Assembly: GCF_009389715.1 (NCBI RefSeq)
Contig: NW_024067786.1
Span: 372,001 to 436,000, forward strand
Reading direction: 5' to 3'
Source: Phoenix dactylifera
Lineage: Eukaryota; Streptophyta; Magnoliopsida; Arecales; Arecaceae
DNA length: 64,000 nucleotides
This document shows, piece by piece, positions 10,912 to 60,590 of this stretch (within the stretch, counting starts at the first letter, position 1; every line of letters begins with the position of its first letter). The notes beneath the pieces are model-generated. The model searched no databases and was not told the DNA's origin. It saw only the letters and a program-made list of their open reading frames with translations. The position numbers and the translations under genes were made by a program.

Positions 10912-13900
10912 TCATTTGGCTGCTGCAAGAGCGCTGTAGCTTGGAAGCGAGAAGCACACGAGAGAGGAGTTTGAGTATGGGATTTGGAGATCAGAGCATG
11001 GTTGAGGGAAGACTGATTCGGAGAACCCAGAGACATTTGAGCAAACCCATGAAGCAGAAGGATCTGAGGTGACAGACAGGTTGATGTTTGAAAGGCAGAT
11101 AGCAGTGAAGGGATCATCTTCAATTCCAGAGAGGACTCCAGCAATGGAAATGTTTGTACCAACCACATTCTTAAGGGTAATCCGATCGATGATTGGAAGA
11201 GCATCAGGATCATAATGGTCATCAGGGTGGCTGCCACAATGTCCTGTGAATTGAAAAGCCTCCTGAACATTTTCCATCTCGGCATCTGATATGACAATGT
11301 TTTCCATGAAACCACCTCGGCCTCGGATAGTCTTGAATTTTATACCGGTGAAAGAATCACGGACATGTAGGTGCTGAACATGTATGTCAGATATTCCACC
11401 AGACATCTCGCTGCCAAATGCAAGGGCAGAACCAAGAGAAGTCTGCAGATGGACATTGTTGATGTGAATGTTGGTGGAAGGTCTTCCAAAAGAGATTCCG
11501 TAGTTGTCCCAACCGCTTTTCAGAGCAATGGCATCATGTGAGACACTAATGCTGCAATCCTCAATGCTTACATTCGAGCATGAATCTGAAGTGATAGTAA
11601 TATGTGTTAGATATGATAGTATTGTTTTCTTTGCTGAATCTGTTTAAGCAACTGAACAATCCAAAAAAATGGACAGTAATAAACAAGAAGCCAATGTTGT
11701 CACGACCAATCAAAAGCTCAGCCACATAATAGTTTTAGAATGTCAGTCTATATTGCAAAAATTATCTAGTGGTCCAATTATGCTTATGCTGGTTTCAGGC
11801 TTTTTAAACTCTTTAAGAGGACTTATAGCAACCACCTATTCTTGGTTTTCATGCATGAGTCGAGGACATGTTAACAGGGAACCTTACCGCATTAGTGCAA
11901 TCAAATTTTGCGGGCAGAGTTAGCATTAATAAGAAAATTTAAATGAGAGCATTATTTGAAGCAAGAACAGTCCTTAGCAATGGCTAAAGCAGCAAATATA
12001 CTTATGCTGTGATGCAGCATAACATAATTGTGAACTTCTGGCGATAACATTCTTGCATTAAATAAATCAGATTTCGCTTTCAGTTAACTTTAGAGAATAG
12101 CATCTATCATTCGCATGAATTATTGCCGGTACTAGAGGAGTCGCACCAGGCATCATGATGCAGACACGAGATTCCATCCCCCTCTCATAAGAAAGAATGG
12201 AGTCGGAGACAATTCTCTGTGAATATCAACAAAAGTTGCTTGAATATGGTGATCTGTACCATGCTTTCAATATGTTGCCTATCTTTGCAGTCAATATATA
12301 ATGACCATTCTTTTTTGATGAATTGTGATCGGGGAGCAACTTATGTTGAGAACGGATTAAAGCTTACACGAGTCACATCCTACAGCTTGTACAATATGAA
12401 GTTGCCATTGTAGAGGATTTCAAGGACAAGCTCTGTGCATCACACATATCTAGAACATGTAACATAAGGATCATACTAGACCACTCGCTTTCATCAGTCA
12501 GATGGTAATTTTATGCCTTGGAACAGCATAGTATTGTAATCCGGGTATCAGAGCAATTTGTACTGTACAATGGTATTAAAGTAATGCCACTAACAAATTA
12601 TCTTCAGTCAATCTATTGGCAAATTCCTCAAGCTTCTAATATCTATAACTTATTATTTTGTTAAGTCCCAAATTCCTATTTATGTATGGCAATTTTTGAT
12701 AAGAAAAAATAATCAGCTTGTGAGCGTTCAAGAGAACTAACCGAGAATGATATTAATAGGATGATAACAGAGAAGTCAAGTGGTTTTTATACCCTGATGC
12801 TGTATAACAGAAAGCACAAAAAATGCGAACAGAATATTGGAAAGGAAGTTTGACGCTAACCTGGAACTATACCACTTGTAAATGAAGAATTGGATGAAGC
12901 GTGAATCGTTATATTTCGGACCTCCACATTTCTGCATCACATATAAACGAATATGAATAGTAGAATCCTGTTTTGAGTTTGCTAGGAAAATGCAACACCG
13001 AAAATAAAATAAGGTCAGATGTAAACATACCCACAGTATACTGGATGAATGCTCCAAGCAGGGGGATCCAAGAATATCAAATTTGAAATCACAACATCAT
13101 TGGAACTCACAAGTTCCACAAGGTGAGGACGGCTGAAGTTTAATGTGTGCGAACGGAACCACCCCCACCAAACTGAACCCTGACCATGGATGGTTCCATT
13201 ATCACCTGTTGCATCCAAATTAGTAAGGACATCAGCATTTGATCTCACTATAAAGGATGGAATGTCCACCAATCTGCTATAAATGTGTAGTAAAAAACAA
13301 AAGCGATAAAAACCATGCCTGTTATCACTACGTCTGTCAAGTTTTGCCCATTTATCAAGCTACGATGCCTCCCGCCTGGAAGATCTTGGCCTTGGCCATA
13401 TGAGGGTAAGGGCTCAATAATAGGCCACTGAGATGATTCCTACAAGCAATAGGGGAAAAATCATCATTTTGCAATATAACATGCTTGAGTCTAAAATTTT
13501 TAGTAAAAAATAAAAGTATCTTTTTCCTTTTTATAATTTAAACTCCGGCATGCTGATTTTCATGGTAAAATTTCCAGACTAGCAAAAGAATGCTAAAAAT
13601 TTCCAAGGCTACACAGTTTCCCCTTTTAAATTTACTCGGATTCTTAGGCAAGCACCCTTCAAGTCTTTCAGCAACTAACAGGATTGTTTTATCTAACAAA
13701 ATTGTATTAGCTAACACAATTCAGAATGCTTTAGTTGATATAGTAACAGAAAGCAAAAATCTGATATGTTGAACCACAAAAAGAAGAATACCTGATTTAA
13801 CCTCCAACCCCCCGGGCCAAAAAAAAAGAAAGGAATAAATGAAACTCCAAAGGGTGTGGAAGAAGTCCTGATATTATAACAGAATGAAGCTACATCTACT

Positions 13901-32574: not shown

Positions 32575-32700
32575 TAATTTTATTTATATATGCTTTACTT
32601 TATAAATTCTTAGCATATAAAGTTTGTTCTATGAACTTATAAGGGCAAAAGGTATAAAAAATAATGTGTTAGAATATGCTTGAGTATAAATACTTAACTC

Positions 32701-33405
32701 TTTTTTTTTTGTATGCTGAAACCGATGATTCATACAATTCTAGTATGGATACATCCAAGAAGGTCAAAATACAACATTATTCTAGAGCGTACAAGGCAGC
32801 TCCCTCTCTCCAACCCAAAGAGTGACTCCAAAGTGATTGGCCACGTACGAGACCATCTAGTTGTAGCCTCGTTGGTCTATCTGTAGACATGCTTAGCCTG
32901 AAAGACCACCCCGCTAGAGACCATAGCTTGGATGTCATGGATCAGAAGGTGGCACTCGCCCCTACCGCCGACAATCCGCTGGACCCAGCCAATGACTATA
33001 GCTGAGTCCCCCTCAAACAGTACCACACTAACTTGCAACACACGCCCTCAGCTTAGCCTCCGGGACCGATGTGTTGAAGATCTGGCAACCACCAGCCACA
33101 ATCACTCTGAAGTTCGGGCCCCTAATAACAAAGCCTACACATCCCCTCCTACCACCATCCAGCACGCATCCATCAAAATTGACCTTGAGGAAACTCGGGG
33201 GTGAGGGCTTACAGGTGAAGAACACTATCCGAAACGCTACACAAGTAGAAGTAGAGCCCCAGGTGCCCCGAGTTATCAAAGGTCCATTCAATAGATCTAG
33301 CTGACTAATCTCCACCGCCTGACCCCGGGCCCACTCCACAACAATTTCTAGAGAAGGACAGCTCTCGCCAAAAGTCCAAACATTTCTGGCTAGCCAGATC
33401 TGATA
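32701..33405 (-). mobile_element. LINE 3' portion with RNase H domain (copy 1)
   Basis: The minus strand codes WARGQAVEISQLDLLNGPLI, then RGTWGSTSTCVAFRI, then PPPSFLKVNFDG (RNase H start) and GFVIRGPNFRVIVAGG. The rest is frame-shifted, down to the T-tract (tail) at 32701-32710. Truncated, dead. It lies within the tandem duplication. Confidence 0.75.
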
Positions 33406-33831
33406 AGTATAAATACTTGACTTTAAGTAAAGCGGTTTTTTATTTTTAATCGATCATCACTACATAGTTAATCATCAATTGCTTATTCATGATTTGATTC
33501 TTGTGCATGTATGGATGTTTCTTTGATAAACTTCTCAAAGCTTGGACTGTTTTATCTTCTCCAATCCTTCAAGTTACAACATTTGATACTTGATAGGTAC
33601 ATGGACTCGACCTCTACCTGACCCCAATTCGATGTCATTTTTATTACTCGAATCCATACCTAACCCAATCCTTCTGGATATGGAATGGAAGAAAAATTAA
33701 ACCCAAAAATTTTATTTATATATGCTTTACTTTATAAATTCTTGGCATATAAAGTTTGTTCTATAAACTTATAAAGGCAAAAAGTATAAAACATAATATG
33801 TTAGAATATGCTTGAGTATAAATACTTGACT

Positions 33832-34555
33832 TTTTTTTTTTTTGCTGAAACGGATGATTCAAACAATTCTAATACAGATACATCCAAGAAGGTCAAAATA
33901 TAACATATTCCGGAATGCACAAGGCAGCTCCCTCTCTTCAACCCAAAAGATGTCTCCAAGTATTTAGCCACATACGAGGCCACCCAATCTGCAACCCCGT
34001 TGGCTTCTCTGTAGACATGCTTAGCCTGGAGGGTCACCCTGCCAGAGATCATGGCTTGGATGTCACAAATCAGGGGGTGACACTTGCCCTTACCGCCGAC
34101 AATCTGTTAGACCCAGCCAATGACCGTAGCCGAATCCCCTTCGAACAGTACCACATTAACCTGCAACATACGTCGAGCATAACCTAGACTGGGCCATGCT
34201 GCCCTCAGCTCCGCCTCCGGGACCAAAATGTTGAAGATCTGAAAACCACTAGCCATAATCACCCTAGACTTCGGGCCTCTGATAACAAAATCTGCACCCT
34301 TCCTCCTGCCGCTATCCAGTAGGCATCCATCGAAATTGACTCTGAGAAAACTCGGAGGTGGGGGCGCCCTGGTGAAGAGCACCATTCGAGACGCTACACG
34401 AGCAGAAGTAGAGGCCCAGGTGCCCCGAGCTATCAAAGGTCCATCCAACATATCTGCCTGACTAATCTCCACCACCTGACCCTAGGTTTGCTCCACAACA
34501 ATTTCCGGAGAAGGACAACTCTCGCCAAAAGTCTAAATATTTCTAGCTAGCCAGA
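33832..34555 (-). mobile_element. LINE 3' portion with RNase H domain (copy 2)
   Basis: Second, better preserved copy: VNFDGCLLDSGR, then AELRAAWPSLGYARR, then LFEGDSATVIGWV. After a frame break come LQAKHVYREANGVADWVASY and the tail (T-tract 33832-33843). These are the canonical RNase H elements with the first Asp, the Glu (AELRA) and the third Asp (GDS). Stops and frame breaks make it non-functional. Confidence 0.8.
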
Positions 34556-34869
34556 TCTGATAAGTATAGATACTTGACTTTAAGTAAAGCATATTTTTAT
34601 TTTTAGTCAATCATCGTTACATAGTTAAACATCAATTGCTTATTCATGATTTGATTCTTGTGCATGTATGGATGTTTCTTTGATAAACTTCTCAAGGCTT
34701 GGACTGTTTTATCTTCTCCGGTCCTTCAAGTTATAACATTTGATACTTGATAGGTACATGGACTCGATCTCTACCTGACCCCAATTCGATGTCATTTTTA
34801 TTACTCGAATCCATACCTAACCCAATCCTTCTGGATATGGAATGGAAGAAAAATTAGACCCAAAATCTT

Positions 34870-48808: not shown

Positions 48809-51800
48809 CTACTTGGTAGCCTGCGCAATCATGTTGCTAATTGAACTAGCCTGCTCTTTGGCTGTTTCCACCAATGCATCCTGCAGACCAAATTCAAATT
48901 GTTAAAACAACATTTTTCTAATAAAGGAACTCTGAAAGGGCAGCAGTCTTGTTATTCCTCTCCTTGATGGTTATTAAGAGAGAGCTAGATGATCGAAAGG
49001 ACAATGATAGAGCAGCAGATAAATGAAAACAAGATTTTTTTTTCCTTAAACAACCGAGGAAATATCATCCTCACGGATGTTTTCTACAAAAAATATTTGT
49101 CTACCTATTTTTTATTCTCTGGCAATTATATGAACTGCTATCTGATGAAAGTGAAATGTCATCTATCATAAACAGTCAATAAGAACAACAGTTGAAATGT
49201 TCCTAGATTGTAGGTTGAAACATCAACTGGTATAAAGGTGATATCAGAGCAGAACAGTTGTAATTATTTACCTGTGCAGCTATGAGCCGTGCAACAGTTT
49301 TCTTGCTTGGCTCCTGAAGTTCACCGGCAATCAGAATCTCATCCAATATATAGTATGCCTGCTCATAAGGCAAGTGCCAGGGATGTCAGAGCAGAAAACA
49401 AAGATGAAAATTGACCCAATTAAATGGCAATATATGGCAATACCTTGTGAAAATTGAAGATCAAGTCAAGCTCACAGACCTGAGAAAGTGTAAAGAAATG
49501 GTAATTTTATATAGGAATGCTGTTTACGTATCAAGAGTACATATAACTATCAAACAGTCAACTCACACTGCCAAAGTATCGATCCAATATCTCAACGAAA
49601 TGATGAATAATTTCAAGAATTTCCAGTTCATTGTCATCTGCATCAATGCACATGCAGAAGTAGAGGCTGGCATATCTGTAGATGCAACAAGAACATTATT
49701 TGGTAACCCCAGAAAACAGCATAAAAATTGGCAGACCTTGAAAGCAACACGTCGATATTAATTTTAACATGACATTACCTTCTATATACAACCTTGTATC
49801 CTTTCCACTCAACAAAATTGCAGAGCTTTGGACCTCGTGCGAGAATCATTCCACTAAGCTCTCGAATGACCTTTGTAAGACAATGAAAGCATTTAGGAAG
49901 CACATAAATTGAACCTTTGTAATGGCTCCAGTTTTGGAACTGGAACCAATTTAGGAAGCACAAAAATTGAATGAAAGTTCAAATTTTCTCTGCTTATTTC
50001 CATTCAAACATATCAGGGAGGAGAGGTGATACAGGATATCAAGAAAACATCACTTCATTTATACTACTGACTCTTCAGGATGGTAGTAAGACCTTCTTTC
50101 TATAACAGACAAACTAGCATGCCAAATAGAACAGCCACAAATGTCAACTTCGAAGTTACAAATGCAATGGTAAGCTTAACATAAAATTACCTGTTTAAAT
50201 AAAATGGAAATGTAACATCTACTTGAGATTATAAAACAAGCTTTAGCCCATCAATTCAGGGTCAATTTTATGTCTTGGTATCAAGAGAGAAGCAAGAAGC
50301 CCCATGACATAAGTCATTGACACCTGAGGTCTTGAATGGATGAAAGCCAGCCATTAGCCAAACACAAAAATTATCGATCCAGCATACTAGGTAGGTATGC
50401 ATTTCCTAGACAAAGTGGAACATGATAGAAGTGATGAACCCACTATGAAGAAAAATTGGCCTAGTTTCTTTTCCGTCATCTTCCCATCAATCATAAATGT
50501 CTGGGTATCAAATACATGAGCAGAAAACAAATCTCAATATATATATTCAACAAGCCACAAATTGCATTTCTTGAAACAGGTGAGCAACAAACAGAAGCGT
50601 TAATTCAAATGTAAAACTAGATTAGATATAAAAGATACAGAAACATAGGAGAGGATACCAATGTTCAGAAAGCCACAAGACAATCGGGTTACCACAGATA
50701 TTACAGGAGGAAAACAGTTCCATTTCTGAAGACACAACTTAAATGGTAAACTTTACATAAGACAAGCTTTTGAAACCAAGAAATCAAACAGTAAAATAAG
50801 TTAATATATCAGGGACAATAGAAAGTAGCAACATATCAAAAAGGATGGACTATAAAATTTTACAGAACAGCATACCTTGGTTCTTTCTTTTTGTGAGTAC
50901 GGGGAGTACCATTTTGTCAATCTAACCTTTCCTTGTCGACTAATTAAAACTACAAAATGGATCTGGAAAAGGTGAAAATGAAATAAATTATTAGACATGC
51001 AATACAAGAACAGATGCCAAGGCCTTCAAGCAAGTAGAAACTCTTAGCTAGCATGTTTAACAACAAGAAGTGAAATCTCTCTCTCTCTCTCTCTCTCTCC
51101 CTCTCTCATTATCAAATATCTTATTCACTTAGTTCGATCATCTCTCACAGTGAACAAAAATGGAGAAAAATGCAAGTATTAGTGGAGCAGAATTAGTGTT
51201 TGGGATGAAGGCATTATTATTGAAATTTATCTATGCAGTTGGCTCTCTTGTTTTCTTATACATTCATTCATCTTCCATGACCCGTGTGCACATAGATGCA
51301 ATCATCAACCAATAACTAGAGGATAGACAATAGGTTGACCTTGTGATCATAAAATTCAAATGACTGTTACATGGAGCCTTCTTGAATGGAGCTTTTCTCT
51401 ATAGCCAACTGCATATCTGATCGGATAAAGTTTGGATGATGCTAATTATACTGACCCGCAATATGATACCACCCTGATTTGTCCACCACTTCATCTTCTA
51501 CTCCCACTTAAATGCAACCAGCAAAATCCCTTTGACGTCCCCCATTTCTAACACTACAAACTTAGACTTCCCACACATCTGCCCGGGCATTCTCATCACT
51601 ACTACTCTAACCTTACATTCCCAGCACCTTCTTTGGTGCCCCTTGATGGGGGTCAAAATGGATCGTCCAGCCCACAACAAAAAGGAGGCCTAATTTCGGC
51701 CCAATACACACCAACGCCGATCAGACGTATCCTCAATCCAACCCAGAATCAACCCGACCTCGGACTCTACCGAAAGTTCCTCCAACTTCCTGTATTCGCC

Positions 51801-54800
51801 AACGCGCCCCAAGCAGACGTATCCTCAGTCCAACCCAGAATCAACCCGACCTCGGACTCTACCGAAAGTTCCTCTACTTCCTGTATTCGCCGACGCGCCC
51901 CGGCCAAGCTCGGGGCGCCCTCCTTATTCGCCGACGCGCCCCGGCCAAGCTCGGGGCGCCCTCCTTATTTGCCAGCACGCTTTGGCCAAGCTCGAGGCGC
52001 CCTCCTGTATTCCCTGACGCGCCCCGGCCGAGTCTGGGGTGCTTGCCTTATTCGCTGACGCGCCCGACCAAGCTCGGGCGCCCTCTCCAGCAATGCACCC
52101 CGACCCTCAGGCTCGAGGCACTCCACCAAGCACGCCTCCAAATTCGGGACGCTAGGCTGACCTCAATACCCGTCCAGCTGACCTCGCCAAATGCCAGATG
52201 CAGCCTCGGCAAGCTACGCCTCGCCAACCACCGCACCCATGTGCATCCATTCGCCCTCCTACGTGGCCATGCATTGCGACGTCGCCACACCATGCTCCGA
52301 TTACCAACGCAGGACGGCAGGACGGCCAGGGGCAACATCTTACCGTTCCCAAGAACGGACTCCACTGCGCGCCATAAGCAAGCCCAAGCAGCGCGCCACT
52401 CCCACTCATGATGATAACGGGCCATGCCCTGCTACAGCTGTCAACGTCTCGCCATTCCGCAGGACAGACTCCAACACGCGCCACAAGCTAGCTCAGGCTG
52501 CACGCCACTCCCTCTCATAATGAGGAGGGGCCATACCTCCGCCACCTAAGCGCTCCTACCAGGGCTATAAAAGATCCCAACAGGTAATGCCTAAGAGACC
52601 TTCGGGGCTGGATATACAAACCTCCACTCTAACTTGATCGTCGGAGAGCCCTCACCGAAAACACCGGTAAGGCTTTGTGTAGGTACACAGCCGGTCGCAG
52701 GAGATCGTTCTCCCCGTCTTCTTCTTCACTCCGATAGCTCCTCCGACTCCTCCGGCGCGGTCACCCTCGGGCCAGATTTGAACCACAACATTTCTGGCGC
52801 TAGAAGAAGGGTCTGAGTCGTGACCATGAGGTTAAGGAGTCACGGAGCTCCGAACGCGTCGAGTGACCAGACGTCGGTGCCTGGCCACTCCCTTCAAAGT
52901 CCGCCTCCTGCAGCACCTTCATCGGCAGACCAGATCCTCCAGGTCCAGCCAGAGCAGTTTTACCTACTGGCTCAACAAGTCCAAGCTCTTACTGTCGCTG
53001 TTCAAAGCCTTCAGCCGGTAGGAGCCTCATCTTTCGTCGAGCTCGACAGAAAGATCGAGGAAGTGGGGCGGCAAGTCCAAATACTCCGGAGACAAGTTGT
53101 GGAGCGCTACAAGGGGTGTCGTCAATCAAGGAGCAAATCCCCTCGAAGGTCTAGTAAGTACGCCCCCCTCAGCTTTGCGGAGTATACTCCCCTCACGTCC
53201 TCCCGGACGGAGATCCTTATAGAGATCGAGGATCGCGGCTACCTCCGACCTCTACCTAAAATGCGACCATCAGTATCGCGACAGCACCAGGACAGGTAGT
53301 GTCGCTTCCACAAAGACCATAGTCATGACCCGGAGGACTGCTACCAACTCCGTGACAAGATTGAAGCGATTGTCCGCCAAGGCCTACTGATCAGTTTGTC
53401 CATGACCAAGCCGACAGAATGGAGTTCGACGGACAAAGCCCGGAGCCGCTCAATGGGTCCGACAACAATTTCCCCAGTACGGGCACCGTCAATACTGCCC
53501 CTCCCCATCCTATATGCTAGTGGCCCTTTTCGACTTCTGGGGGCAGGGGCGAGGCTGTGCCCCCGTTAGTCCGGGTCCCACGACCCGGGATGTAAGCTAT
53601 AGCTCCCGGATGGGACTTTAGCCCCGCCGGGTCAGGGTTCCTTTTTTTAAAAAAAAAATCAGAATGTGTCTATTAATAAAGTCACTCCCTGGGATTTCTC
53701 TAAAGTGTCTCCGAAACCCCTAATGGGCTCGCCACACTCCAGCTGCCCCCACAGCGCGAGTCATATATTGATTTATCGACAAAGTCGTCCTTCGAGCTCG
53801 GCTCGGGACGCCCTACAGCATCGATTGAGAGTCAAAGGGCCTCACGACTGCCTGCAGGATCTATCAACAAAGTCGTCCCTCGAGCTCGGCTCGCCCTGCA
53901 GCATCGATTGAGAGCCAAAGAGCTTCACGACCAAGGTTCGCCATACCGGTACCGAACCCCGTACCGGTGCCGCATTAGTATAGGCGTACCGAGTGTCGGT
54001 ACGGTACCGTACGCTCGGTACCGACCGTACCGACATTGGTGTACCGATACCGGTACCCATCGGTATGGGTACGGTACGCTCGGTACCGACCGGTACCGAC
54101 CGGTACAGCGAACCTTGCTCACGACTGTAGGATCTATCGACAAAGTCATCCCTCGAGCTCGGCTCGGGACGCCCTGTAGCATCGATTAAGAGCCAAAGAG
54201 CCTCACGACTGTAAGATCTATCGACAAAATCGTCCCTCAAGCTTGGCTCGGGACGCCCTGCAGCATCGATTGAGAGCCAAAGGGCCTCACGACTGCAGGA
54301 TCTATCGACAAAGTCGTCCCTCGAGCTCGGCTCGGGACGTCCTGCAGCATCGATTGAGAGCCAAAGGGCCTCACGACTGCAAGATCTATCGACAAAATCG
54401 TCCCTCGAGCTCGGCTCGGGACGCCCTGTAGTATCGATTGAGAGCCAAAGGACCTCACGACTGCAGCATCTATCGACAAAGTCGTCCCTCGAGCTCGGCT
54501 CGAGACGCCCTACAATATCGATTGAGAGCCAAAGGGCCTCGCGACCACAGGATCTGTTTATAAAGGGCGCCCTTGATCTGAGTGGAGGGACGCCCTGCGG
54601 CGTCAACTGGGAGCCGTTAAAGAGCACCCCCGTCCGCAGTACTCTATAAAGTGCGCCCCCGATCTGAGTTGGGGGCGCCCTGCAGCGTCAACGGGGAGCC
54701 ATTGAAGAGCACCCCCGTCCGCAGTACTCTAAAAGTGCACCCCTGATCTGAGTGGAGGGCGCCTTGCGGCGTCAACGGAGAGCCGTTGAAGAGCACCCGT

Positions 54801-57800
54801 CCGCAGTATAATATTCTCGAGCTGGTATCAACCCTCGAGCGGATTTCTATTCTCGAGCAGGTCTCGAGCTATTTCTGAGCTGGAATCAACCCACAGGCGG
54901 AATTCTATTCTCGAGCTAGTATCAACCCTCGAGCGGATTTCTATTCTCGAGCAGGTCTCGAGCTAGTCCCGAGCTGAAATCAACCCTCGGGCGGAATTCT
55001 ATTCTTGAGCTGGTATCAACCCTCGAGCGGATTTCTATTATCGAGCAGGTCTCGAGCTATTCTTGAGCTGGAATCAACCATTGGGCGGAATTCTAGTCTC
55101 GAGCTGGTATCAACCCTCGAGCGGATTTCTATTCTCGAGCAGGTCTTGAGCTATTCTCGAGCTGGAATCAACCCTCGAGCGGAATTCTATTCTCGAGCTG
55201 GTATCAACCCTCGAGCGGATTTCTATTCTCGAGCAGATCTCGAGCTATTCTCGAGCTGGAATCAACCCTCGGGCGGAATTCTATTCTCGAGCTGGTATCA
55301 ACCCTCGAGCGAATTTCTATTCTCGAGCAGATCTCGAGCTATTTCCGAGCTGGAATCAACCCTTGGGCGGAATTCTATTCTCGAGCTGGAATCAACCCTC
55401 GAGCGGATTTCTACTCTCGAGTAGGTCTCAAGCTGGTGACAACCTTCGAACAGATTTTTCTCGAGCTACTTTCAAGTCAGTTTTCTTCCTTCGCCAGCAT
55501 CGCCTCTTTGGGCCAGGCTCAAGCTAGCCTGTAATATTAAACAAAGAGCCACGAGCTCAATTTACTAGAGGATTATTCCCAAGACAAAAGCAAATGCCGA
55601 GCATGAGGACTTTGGCGAATGCCCAAAGCAGCCCCTGCTATGAGAGATAGACTCAAGCCTGAGCTGCGTGGTTCGGATTTTTGACAACCGGACACAAAGC
55701 AGGACGAGCTCGAATGCCTAGCCAGATTATAAGGGCGAAGCAAAAGAAGCTCGAACACTCAACAAAAGGTACGAAGTACTAAAAGAAACTGTATATTTCA
55801 TTAACGTCAAAAAGGGGCCAAAGGCACAATACAAGGGAACCCGACCTAGAGGTCGGGCAGAATACAATAGGCCCGAGGCGGCCGACCTTACAAAAATAAG
55901 AACAGAAAACTAGTTAATCTGGACGACCTCCACATCGGCGTTAGGAGCGGATTCCGTTCCAGTAGCGATTTCAGGGACGACCTCTGGTCTGACTTCGGCG
56001 ATGGCTTCTGCGGCACCCCCGGCCATTTCGGCAGCTTCGTCCAGATTTGGCTGAAGGGTACTAAGGTTGGATCAAAAAAAGTCGCTAGACTTGATCGCGA
56101 CAATTCTCGAAGCCCTGAATCATCGCAGTAGCAGCCCCTTCCGCCAGCTCGTTAAGATACTCTCCCGACTGGCGGAACTTCCTAACGGCCTCACAGGCAG
56201 ATTCCTCCAAGAGGCCTTCAAGTCGCCCGACCTTTGGCCTCAGCTCCTCAACCTCGCTTTGAAGGCGGATCAGAGCAGCTTCAAACTCCGAGATCCGACC
56301 TGCAGCGGATGAACAAGCCCGGGAGTGATCGGCCTCCATTTCCCAGATCTGAGCAAGCTTGTCTTTAAGTAGGGCCTCAACAGGCCGTACCTTCTTTCTG
56401 GCACTCCGAAGCCGTTGCTTAGCAACCGCAGCCCTCACCTCGATCCTGCACCGCTGCTGCTCAACCAGTGTCGCCCGCTCCTCGGCCTCCTGTCCCTAGA
56501 GCTCAACACGCTCCACCCTCGGCCTAAGCGCCCTTATCTCCTTCCGGTAGGTGAGCATGCTAGACATCAGCATGTCAACCACATGAAGGGACTGGCACAA
56601 AAGATGAAGTCAGTGAAGGTCGGACACTTGCAAAGAAAATGAATAAGCAGAAGGGTTGCACTACTCACCCGGACACTGTTTGAATAAACACGACGAACAA
56701 AGTCATCGAAGTTCTCCATTAAGGCTCGATCGCGCGGGAGCATGATGATGCGCACGAGCTCGCTAGAGCCGAGTCGCCCTTAGATATGCGGCACTGATGC
56801 CGCGATGGTCTTGTCCCGAACTTGGAAGGAATGGAGTCGACCCCGGTTGACGTCGGAACCCCAGGAGGAGTCAAAACCCCAGCGAAGGTTGGAGCCTCAG
56901 GGAAAGTCGCGACCTTAGCAAGGGTTGGGCCCACAAAAGGAGTCAGGAGCTCGGACCCGCTCCCCAACTCGGGACCCGATTTAGATAGTCGGATAGCTTC
57001 TCCGGCCTCTTGGACTTGGCCGATGGACACGGCCGCCACTGAACCAGAAGGGCTCCCCCTTGCCGCTAATAAGGGCACCTCGACCGCCGCCGCGAGAGCC
57101 TGATCAAATCCGACTTCATCAAGGGCGGCAACCTCAAACGCTTCAAGCTCACTCCGCTCAATCTCAGAGTCGGAGCTAACTCTGGTCTTCTTTGGCCTTC
57201 TTTCGGGTTGAGCCCCCTCCGAGGTGGCCATCCTCTTTCTATACTTGGCCATCAACGTCTTGGCGTTGAAGATCATCCCTACAATATCTGACGACAAAGG
57301 TCTTATTAAGACCCAGCATGGAAAGAAAAAAGGAGCAACTAAGTTACTCTTACCTTCGGGGCGAGCCGGGCTCAGGCCAAGATTTACCAAAGCCTCCTCG
57401 GTGAGCAGGTCGGAGAGCTGTGGAGTTCCCTCCAGCCCGAGCAAACTATCTAAAATACCCTGCTCGGACTGCGACAACTGTGGGAGCTTATTATTCGCTG
57501 AGGCCAGCAGAAAGCTCCAGGTCAGATTAAACCCCCACGACCGCTCGGAGGAAATAAGGAAAACTTGTTCTTCCACCCATGGTTGGAGGTAGGAATACCC
57601 CTGAAAAGCTTATGGCCTCCTCGGGAGGAGAAGTACCACCATCCTTTGTCTGCGGGGTTGTCCTTTAATATAAAGCAACTCCTGAAGACGTTTACTGAGG
57701 GGAGCAGACCGTGTGCAAGGCAAAGGGCGAGGAAGCCAAATATCATCCTCCACGAGTTCGGGACGAGCTGTGCAGGCACAAGACGGTAAACCGTCAGAAG

Positions 57801-60590
57801 CTCTCCCACAAACTCGTGCAAAGAGAATCCCAGCCTTGCTCGGAGCATCTCTATGTACACTCCAATCCAACCTTTAGGAGGGTTGGTGACTCGCCCTCCG
57901 AGGTCCGGGAGCTTGAGAACAAACTCCGGAGGAAGAAAGAATTGGGAACGAACCATGCCCAAATCCTCATCACTCAAAAGCGAGCCGGTCCCGTGTGGAC
58001 CCAGGCCCGCCTCAAGCTCAGTCTCCCCTGCACCGGAAGAAGTCTAAGCTCGAAACAAACCTGTGCCAAACATCAAGACCCTCGTAGGCGAACTCATTGC
58101 CTTGTTCACAGAAATACAAAGAGGAGAAAAGACAAGAGACTCTCCGAGCGATCGAGAGAAGGATAAAATGCCAACTCGAAGAACTCGCCAAAGAAGATGA
58201 TCGGGAAGAAGCGGGACGATCGCCGGAGATTATGAATAGCGTTCAATGCGAAGGTCGACGAGGAGCTCCCAGACGCCCAAGGAAAGGCTTGAACACCACA
58301 GTGATGACGGCTGAGAAGAAAAAAAGTAGAGGCGGAAAGGATCAAATAATGATCCTACGGCCCTCTCCAGGTCTTATATAGTCCACTACAACGGCTCCGA
58401 TCGGATAGCCCAAGCGATCAGGCAAGCCAAATTCCGCCACATGGCAAACTCCGAAACGGCCTCAACAAATCTTTCTGAATCACAGCACTAAATGCCGATC
58501 ATCATGAAGGGTGCTCCAGAGATCTGAACTTTAATAGCCGGCCTCTCGCATTCTACTGGGCGAGACGCTTCGGAGAATGGAGCATTAATAGCTGGCCTCT
58601 CGCGTTCCATCAGGCGGGGCGCTTCGGGAGACGAGGCATTAATAGTCGCCCCTTTTTTTCATTCCATCCAACAACCTCTTTTTGAAAAGGATGCACACGT
58701 GGAATGCAAAAAAGTCCCCCCGACGGATTCTGCTCAAGATGGCGTGGTAGCTCAAGCCACCTAAGCCCAGCTCCGAAAGTCTAACTCAATGCTCTCGGCT
58801 ATAAAATGCCCTAAGTATCCCCAGCTCGGTACGTGCATTTTCATAAGCGCTTGGCTAATGCGCAGGACGATCAATAGTCCAGCTACTTCTTTCGCCTGAG
58901 CTGGAGAGCAACTCGACCTCGGAAGTCGGAGGACAAATGATGGAGGTCAAAATGGATCGTCCAGCCCACAACAAAAAGGGGGTCCAATTTCGGGCTGATA
59001 GACACCAACGCCGATCAAACGTATCCTCAGTCCGGCCCAGAATCAACTCGACCTCGGACTCTACCGAAAGTTCCTCCAACTTTCTGCATTCGCCGACGCG
59101 CCCCGGCCAAGCTCAGGACGCCCTCTTTATTCGTCGACGCGCCCCGGCCAAGCTCGGGGTGCCCTCCTTATTCGCCAGCACGCCCTGGCCAAGCTCGGGG
59201 CGCCCTCCTGTATTCGTCGACGCGCCCTGGCCGAATCCGGGGCGCCTGCCTTATTTGCTGACGCGCCCGACCAAGCTCGGGCGCCCTCTCCAGCAATGCA
59301 CCCCGACCCTCGGGCTCGGGGCACTCCACTGAGCACGCCTCCAAATTCGGGATGCTAGGCTGACCTCGGCGCCCGTCCAGCCGACCTCGCCAAATGCCAG
59401 ATGCAGTATCGATAAGCTAGGCCTCGCCAACCACCGCACCCATGTGCATCCATCCCTCCTACGTGGCTGTGCATTGCGACATCGCCACACCATGCTCCGA
59501 TTACCAGCCCGGAATGGCCAGGGGCAACATCTTACCGTTCCCAAGAACGGACTTCACTGCGCGCCATAAGCAAGCCCAAGCAACGCGCCACTCCAACTCA
59601 TGATGATAACGGGCTATGCCCTGCTACGACTGTCAACGTCTCGCCATTTTTCAGAACAGACTCCACCGCGCGCTACAAGCTAGCTCAGGCTGCGTGCCAC
59701 TCTCTCTCGTAATGAGGACGGGCCATACCTCCGCCACCTAAACGCTCCTACCAGGGCTATAAAAGATCCCAACATGTAATGCTTAAGGGACTTTGGAGCT
59801 GGATATATAAATCTCCACTCTAACTTGATCGTCGAAGGGTCCTCACCGGAAACACCGGTGAGGCTTTGTGCAGGCACACCGCCGGTCATAGGAGGTGGCT
59901 CTCTCCGTCTTCTTCTTCACTCCGGCAGCTCCCCCGACTCCTCCGGCGCGGTCAACCTCGGGATAGATTTGAACCACAACACCCCTAATGGTCAAATTCT
60001 TCTTCCCTTATTCCTTTCCAAAGGTTCTATATTTACGACCATGAAAAAATATATAAAGGGAACTACAAATGAGGGAAAGAGCATTAATCGCTCGCACAAA
60101 TTAAATATATATGAAAGGCTCCGTAGCACTCGGATTAAAGAACGACCAATCAAATTATTCAACAAGATTCTTTCTGCCAATCATCGAAATGCATTCCGAG
60201 ATCTAAAGGGAGGCCCGTCAGAAAAACTTAAAACTCCAAAATGTCATTTTAAAATACAAATACCAAAAGGTTTTGAAATGAAATCAATAATCTACGACTC
60301 GCATCATGATGCAGATAACTCCATCTCTACTGATAGAAAGCAGACAAAAGAATTAGCCATAACACAAGTAAATCAACGAGACATAAACGTTCACATGATT
60401 ACAAGAAATCAAACCGTTCCCACACCAAATCATCCCATTCAGATCTACAAAGATCTCAATACAAAGTACAATTCATCAAAAAAAATGCACAAACCCTGAA
60501 TCCTAAATCCGAGCGAGAAATCCACAAAGAAAACAAGAAAATACTTCGATTAAAACAAGACTTTAGGATCGATTTAAGGGAACAAACCAT
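48809..60590 (-). CDS. AP1S: AP-1 clathrin adaptor complex subunit sigma, seven exons
   Basis: Exons on the minus strand: 60590-60588 (ATG alone), 50962-50876, 49870-49779, 49675-49567, 49479-49444, 49358-49272 and 48880-48809. They sum to 486 nt, exactly 161 codons plus stop, the length I recall for plant AP-1 sigma (AP19). Every junction is GT-AG and in frame. Sequence landmarks: [20 protein letters not shown], then [40 protein letters not shown] and [13 protein letters not shown]. The protein is the small longin-like subunit of the heterotetramer that sorts cargo at the trans-Golgi/early endosome and helps bind dileucine signals. The ATG-only exon 1 is inferred from CCAGAAAAATG|GTTTGT with a GC-rich leader. 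Intron 1 is 9.6 kb because an 8.3-kb retrotransposon is inserted in it. Exons 2-7 are very sure; exon 1 fairly sure. Confidence 0.9.
51078..51108. repeat. (CT)n microsatellite
   Basis: About 15 CT units in AP-1 sigma intron 1. Confidence 0.9.
51644..52790 (+). repeat. 5' LTR (1147 bp)
   Basis: TG...CA ends. It contains a 102-bp tandem duplication (51722-51823/51824-51925) that the 3' LTR lacks and which accounts for the length difference. It also has four to five units of about 43 bp (GACGCGCCC(C)GGCCAAGCTCG type, 51890-52090). TATAAAAG is at 52566, followed by a leader of about 220 bp. Confidence 0.9.
52566..52573 (+). promoter_or_regulatory. TATA box of the 5' LTR
   Basis: TATAAAAG in the context GGGCTATAAAAGATCCC; an identical box is in the 3' LTR near 59758. 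Likely U3/R promoter. Confidence 0.6.
52793..52811 (+). other. Primer-binding-site region
   Basis: TGGCGCTAGAAGAAGGGTC starts 2-3 nt after the 5' LTR, the usual place and TGG start of a tRNA primer site. The tRNA species is not assigned. Confidence 0.55.
52826..53420 (+). pseudogene. gag fragment, interrupted
   Basis: ATG at 52826 opens a reading frame with a Gln-rich N-terminal stretch, then an Arg/Ser-rich part ([12 protein letters not shown]). An in-frame TAG sits at 53297-53299 exactly where a Tyr codon stands before [19 protein letters not shown], a motif typical of this gag lineage (C, H, H, C). The frame then continues with IEAIVRQGL, and a frame change near 53390 leads to [15 protein letters not shown]. 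The main capsid part is missing. Non-functional. Confidence 0.8.
53767..54552 (+). repeat. Tandem array 1, period 84 bp
   Basis: Unit core: ATCTATCGACAAAGTCGTCC, CTCGGCTCGGGACGCCCTG, CATCGATTGAGAGCCAAAG and CCTCACGACTGCAG. Unit starts at 54131, 54215, 54299, 54383 and 54467 are exactly 84 bp apart. Two more units lie to the left of an inserted MITE. Long ORFs on both strands here (up to 261 aa) only reflect 84 being divisible by 3. Confidence 0.92.
53932..54118. mobile_element. GGTACCG-rich MITE inserted in tandem array 1
   Basis: 187 bp with inverted ends CAAGGTTCGC...GCGAACCTTGC. It is flanked by TCACGAC on both sides (53925-53931 and 54119-54125), i.e. a 7-bp duplication, or 8 with one mismatch, pointing to a hAT-like element. 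The interior is almost entirely variants of GGTACCG and CGGTACC, so it is self-complementary at many registers. Clean insertion into one 84-bp unit. Confidence 0.85.
54553..54812 (+). repeat. Tandem array 2, period about 91 bp, three units
   Basis: Units share CTGATCTGAGTGGAGG-like, GGCGTCAAC, GGGAGCCGTTGAAGAGCACC and GTCCGCAGTACT. It is related to array 1 by GACGCCCTGC(A/G)GC and GAGAGCC, so the two arrays may share an origin. Confidence 0.8.
54813..55440 (+). repeat. Tandem array 3, period 94 bp
   Basis: About seven units, each made of two similar halves of about 47 bp: CTCGAGCTGGTATCAACCCT and CTCGAGCTGGAATCAACCCT, each followed by CGGAATTCTATT or CGGATTTCTATT. Starts at 54901 and 54995 are 94 bp apart. 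Many CTCGAG (XhoI) sites. The 139-aa plus-strand ORF here is repeat-derived. Confidence 0.9.
55890..58097 (-). pseudogene. Antisense spliced gene of the retrotransposon (Transposase_28, 'putative gypsy type transposon'), decayed
   Basis: ATG at 58097 on the strand opposite to gag. Exon 1 (58097-57354) holds the conserved [22 protein letters not shown]-like ([13 protein letters not shown]) and PSVNVFRS, then GWWYFSSR. I recall these as the Pfam family 'Putative gypsy type transposon'. Intron 57353-57279 (75 bp) and intron 56668-56592 (77 bp) have GT-AG borders and preserve phase. Exon 2 has a basic, nuclear-signal-like RRPKKTR and acidic stretches. Exon 3 is a heptad-rich coiled coil (residues such as [16 protein letters not shown]). 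Breaks: an in-frame TAG at codon 18 (58044-58046), a frameshift near 57560, a frameshift near 56750, and a TAG near 56495. The function of this family is unknown. It has its own TATA box. Confidence 0.85.
58373..58380 (-). promoter_or_regulatory. TATA box for the antisense gene
   Basis: TATATAAG on the minus strand, about 280 bp upstream of the antisense ATG at 58097. It suggests an internal promoter independent of the LTR. Inferred from sequence and position. Confidence 0.5.
58400..58937 (+). other. Internal region before the 3' LTR
   Basis: Two related segments of about 60 bp (GCATTAATAGC(C/T)GGCCTCTCGC type, 58535-58650). A plus-strand TATAAAAT at 58800 lies in the same context as an LTR-like promoter. 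No clear polypurine tract; GGAAGTCGGAGGACAAA immediately precedes the LTR. Confidence 0.45.
58938..59981 (+). repeat. 3' LTR (1044 bp)
   Basis: Aligns with the 5' LTR over its length except for the missing 102-bp copy and small indels. Visible substitutions throughout show the insertion is not recent. Confidence 0.92.

Follow-up and report, generated by a model that had tools for sequence, protein, structure and literature searches.

Relic of a plant LTR retrotransposon with the remains of an antisense Transposase_28 gene

The DNA analysed here, a stretch of 64 kb (hereafter the window), contains a complete LTR insertion at 51644-59981, bounded on both outer sides by the target site duplication (TSD) CCCCT. 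The element is an old, dead relic of a plant LTR retrotransposon that holds the remains of an antisense accessory gene. Our preferred reading, to which we assign a probability of about 0.85, is that of an old, dead and internally deleted insertion of the Tat/Retand type of Ty3/gypsy elements, whose antisense gene is the accessory gene commonly carried by that lineage. The features of the insertion are collected in Table 1.

Table 1. Features of the LTR insertion and of its antisense gene (window coordinates).
Feature	Position	Strand	Remarks
Target site duplication, left	51639-51643		CCCCT
5' LTR	51644-52790	+	1147 bp, TG...CA; 91-bp stretch 51785-51875 not in 3' LTR
Putative primer binding site	52795-52811	+	Starts TGG, 4 bp past 5' LTR
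Gag-like remnant	52826-53569	+	N-terminal leader and cysteine/histidine-rich piece; stop at 53297; without Pfam gag core
Tandem arrays, 84-, 84- and 94-bp units	53770-55434		Between gag remnant and antisense gene; first array broken by small insert
Antisense exon 3	55910-56591	-	Probable coiled coil; stops 56498, 56087; one frame change; frame ends 55912-55910
Predicted intron 2	56592-56668	-	77 nt, GT-AG, GTGAGT...CCAG
Antisense exon 2	56669-57278	-	Basic RRPKKTR stretch 57201-57181; one frame change; stop 56782
Predicted intron 1	57279-57353	-	75 nt, GT-AG, GTAAGA...TGTAG; no in-frame stop
Antisense exon 1	57354-58097	-	ATG; stop 58046; Transposase_28 domain ~57854-57663; one frame change before intron 1
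Candidate antisense TATA box TATATAAG	58373-58380	-	TATA-like, 283 bp upstream of ATG 58097
3' LTR	58938-59981	+	1044 bp, TG...CA
Target site duplication, right	59982-59986		CCCCT

The two LTRs differ by 87 transitions and 15 transversions over 1044 compared sites, corresponding to a K2P distance of 0.107. Rates in use for LTR dating are 1.3e-8, 6.5e-9 and 2.61e-9 per site per year; with these three assumed rates, the insertion would be about 4, 8 or 21 million years old, respectively. The 91-bp stretch private to the 5' LTR overlaps a 66-bp direct repeat (copies at 51717-51782 and 51809-51874), and a tandem duplication in one LTR is therefore likely.

The antisense gene relic occupies the minus strand from 58097 to 55910, about 680 codons. 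A previous reading made from the letters of this DNA (the sequence-only reading) had described TATATAAG on the strand opposite to gag, followed about 280 bp later by an ATG, and both were recovered at the positions given in Table 1. The ATG shares its frame with an open piece at 58043-57522 that matches PF04195 (Transposase_28) with 43.1 bits and an E value of 5e-11. This score exceeds the Pfam gathering cut-off of 26.2, so that the Transposase_28 type proposed earlier is borne out by HMM search of the minus strand. The motif GWWYFSSR and a 10-residue motif, both cited in its favour, lie within the same piece, and the basic signal is found in the RRPKKTR stretch of exon 2. The claim that the gene had its own TATA box holds in part: a TATA-like box is present, but the bare TATATAAG occurs eight times in the 64-kb window (both strands together, including the one at the antisense gene) and is for that reason weak evidence. 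A 54-bp unit in about two copies (58531-58645) lies between this box and the 3' LTR and may belong to the antisense promoter region.

Two short phase-preserving GT-AG introns had also been proposed, and they are probable: when the predicted introns 1 and 2 are taken out, the neighbouring frames stay in register. On the gene's strand, GTAAGA and GTGAGT occur once each, at the two donors, against five occurrences of the looser GTRAG. The length of intron 1 is divisible by three and it contains no stop, so that it could be read through; retention would alter the frame for intron 2 only. Both introns and the promoter are plausible predictions from the sequence. For the C-terminus, a by-eye reading together with a sub-threshold match to the Filament profile (E 0.028, 14.5 bits, cut-off 40) makes the coiled coil named in the sequence-only reading probable.

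Long frames run on both strands of this stretch of 55% GC, as would be the case if the antisense frame were an accident of GC-rich, low-stop sequence and no gene at all. The PF04195 match, well over its cut-off, comes close to refuting this idea, to which we give almost no credence, and the openness of the frame argues against it as well. When up to three frame changes are optimally placed in the spliced 2035 nt, two stops are left, a number reached by one of 500 dinucleotide shuffles (mean 10.5). Unspliced, the same stretch needs nine stops on the plus strand versus four on the minus strand. Of 124 overlapping 2187-nt stretches, counted by window position and strand, a single one has four stops or fewer, and it overlaps the antisense gene.

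The sense strand is more severely reduced. From the ATG at 52826 runs a gag-like frame of 248 codons, including the internal stop and a terminal stop at 53567. We take this frame to resemble the two ends of gag, its cysteine/histidine-rich piece being presumably like the nucleocapsid side; both likenesses are without a database match. Among the 19 interior sense-strand frames of at least 80 codons, none reached the Pfam cut-off for a gag core, protease, RT, RNase H or integrase. The nearest retroelement name was Gag_p12, whose match covered 17 residues of a tandem-repeat frame and scored 18.3 bits (cut-off 25); it was taken as a chance match. The earlier statement that the element had lost pol agrees with this survey of frames; however, gag is gutted as well, and the loss is not of pol alone. 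The interior measures 6147 bp, and besides the arrays, the gag remnant and the antisense region it comprises about 1.2 kb (200 + 475 + 557 bp), which therefore leaves insufficient room for a pol gene. The insert that breaks the first 84-bp array is about 190 bp long (53929-54120), is rich in CGGTACCG and has inverted repeats of 22 bp (86% complementary) at its ends; it resembles a small foldback element of the MITE kind.

The assignment to Retand draws on PF04195, the LTRs and TSD, the gene anatomy, the openness of the frame and the arrays, with no RT found that could be placed in an RT tree; we infer from these sequence features the lineage, as well as the transcription, splicing and nuclear role of the antisense product. 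As in Retand elements, an antisense TRP28 (PF04195) ORF stands before the 3' LTR, in the place described as between pol and that LTR, and the LTR lengths (1147 and 1044 bp) and the 5-bp TSD agree with the lineage (LTRs of 315-1194 bp). The interior of 6147 bp falls below the 7.4-12.9 kb of published clusters, which counts against the assignment, although such a shortfall is to be expected once pol is gone and this range describes size rather than defining the lineage. In the available text of Vicient 2025 (PMC11963269), antisense TRP28 ORFs are given for 97% of recently active Retand clusters (61 of 63) and tandem arrays for about half of the elements. TRP28 is kept in all 15 rows of the printed table with NO under GAG, AP, RH or INT, though defective clusters number ten in the text. 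Since an intact RT was the starting point of that survey, an RT-less copy like the present one lies beyond its reach. In the part of Neumann 2019 available (PMC6317226), where the survey was not limited to recent copies, Transposase_28 is present in 23% of Retand elements and is therefore not universal in the lineage. The same source gives an extra RNase H between RH and INT as a Retand trait and 5-bp TSDs as usual across plant LTR elements.

Searches for relatives were conducted at several levels. Within the 64-kb window, blastn returned no second copy of the antisense gene (no other match of at least 100 nt at E ≤ 1e-8). For the Transposase_28 piece, 94 word-sharing candidate proteins yielded no homologue at E ≤ 0.001. 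Five pattern-matching stretches in IMG/VR yielded no confirmed locus, and a PDB sequence search gave no match at E ≤ 5. Folded alone, a 144-residue piece reached a mean pLDDT of 50.3, too poor for a fold search. Ten flanking pieces compared with Pfam gave one domain above the cut-off, Glyco_hydro_28 (PF00295; minus strand, 10915-11643; 47.1 bits), which is compatible with a plant host, and one just below it, HMA. Outside the element, adjacent direct repeats of 665 bp (88%) and 471 bp (85%) lie at 32576-34865.

The sequence-only reading had stops and frameshifts arrive eventually, and the counts agree. The assigned antisense frames hold four internal stops and three frame changes, one per exon (Table 1). 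Neutral decay since insertion, calculated with per-branch rates from the LTR pair for an intact frame of the same composition, predicts 2.8 stops (P of four or more = 0.32) and 2.9 frameshifts, a match that serves as a consistency check and not as proof because the placing of the frame changes benefited from hindsight and the indel rate comes from the three frame-shifting gaps among four in the LTRs. These counts fit the LTR age, and the antisense frame was therefore probably about open when the copy inserted.

The insertion of a full-length element with pol, followed later by deletion of its middle, would equally well give a frame open at insertion, so that decay leaves the state of pol at that time undecided. 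We lean, without great firmness, towards this course of events, in which this copy alone lost the part reaching from the gag core to pol and the rest decayed. Deletions within old plant LTR elements are common, and the open frame is then obtained without any selection on a pol-less form. Against it, both gag-like ends stand in one frame, which would happen by chance about one time in three.

This private deletion is the simpler rival of the as yet unsupported proposal, made in the sequence-only reading, that what counted for the element was its antisense product and not pol. On such a view, a pol-less lineage would have multiplied with partner enzymes and kept the antisense gene for its useful product, which we regard as possible but on balance doubtful. 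The frame that was about open at insertion is consistent with it, as are the shortened gag-like frame of 248 codons, whose single internal stop compares with 1.4 expected from neutral decay, and the retention of TRP28 by the published defective Retand clusters (15 of 15 rows in the available text of PMC11963269). However, those clusters were found through intact RT and are thus silent on RT-less families, hitchhiking accounts for retention equally well as selection, and no second pol-less copy was seen in the 64-kb window. A stronger version, which we consider improbable, is an RT-less LTR family that maintained a single gene, the intron-containing antisense Transposase_28. It would live as a parasite and provide or hijack, in trans, the regulatory half of the Retand cycle. 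Such a family would be invisible to the Vicient 2025 survey as far as its available text goes, because that survey began from intact RT (PMC11963269).

Under our preferred reading of a Tat/Retand-type relic, the antisense gene of the living element would have had its own promoter within the 3' internal region, and its transcript would have been spliced. Translation would yield a nuclear protein that carries the Transposase_28 domain at its N-terminus and ends in a coiled coil. Following a published proposal, this protein would probably have regulated or assisted the element's own transcription or nuclear steps. The introns may persist through retrotransposition, since the genomic RNA has the opposite orientation and they are not recognisable in it as introns. 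In this copy, the gene would have been about open at insertion and would have decayed neutrally afterwards. The role of antisense ORFs in these elements, which the sequence-only reading had called unknown, is so still, although reviews already give a nuclear product, an own promoter and persistence in defective clusters. In the available text of the review by Vicient and Casacuberta 2020 (PMC7264820), gene23 of maize Grande is transcribed from an upstream promoter and its product is nuclear, and regulatory and dsRNA roles are discussed. What the antisense Transposase_28 gene does is a matter that concerns an entire lineage of plant elements, and RT-less copies that retain the gene offer a natural test. 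If the antisense frame proved to be under purifying selection in them, its action would be shown to be independent of the element's own pol; the single copy described here points to that test without answering it.

Several known systems resemble this element in part. LARD-type derivatives have LTRs, a large internal region and no pol, as here, but about 2.2 kb of the present interior is the antisense gene relic; such derivatives are named in the available part of an oil palm account (PMC4608283). TR-GAG and other single-protein non-autonomous LTR elements, as far as their account is available (PMC9784723), share the two LTRs and a reduced interior dependent on partner enzymes; however, they keep one sense-strand protein, whereas here the best-preserved gene is antisense and gag is broken. 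The present copy falls outside TR-GAG, which has a GAG-encoding frame between its LTRs, as its own frame has no Pfam gag core and contains one internal stop. Grande, in the text cited above (PMC7264820), is similar in having an antisense accessory gene whose own promoter, a feature predicted here, lies within the 3' internal region; a transcript and a nuclear product are reported for Grande, while the copy described here is known from its DNA alone. The available parts of the Cinful-zeon account (PMC2774510) and of the oil palm account (PMC4608283) hold nothing on antisense genes of elements.

The closest likeness is to the Retand elements with antisense TRP28 (PMC11963269, available text), which share the antisense Transposase_28 ORF before the 3' LTR, the tandem arrays, a long 3' internal region and LTRs within the same range of length, and some of which are defective. 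By contrast, neither RT nor a gag core was found in this copy among the frames searched, and two introns are predicted in its antisense gene, while the word 'intron' is absent from the main text of that paper. Introns in an antisense Transposase_28 gene, and RT-less copies carrying the gene, were not met in the available portions of the literature searched. What this copy adds to the literature covered is small, namely its RT-less state and the predicted introns; the antisense gene itself is already known for the lineage.
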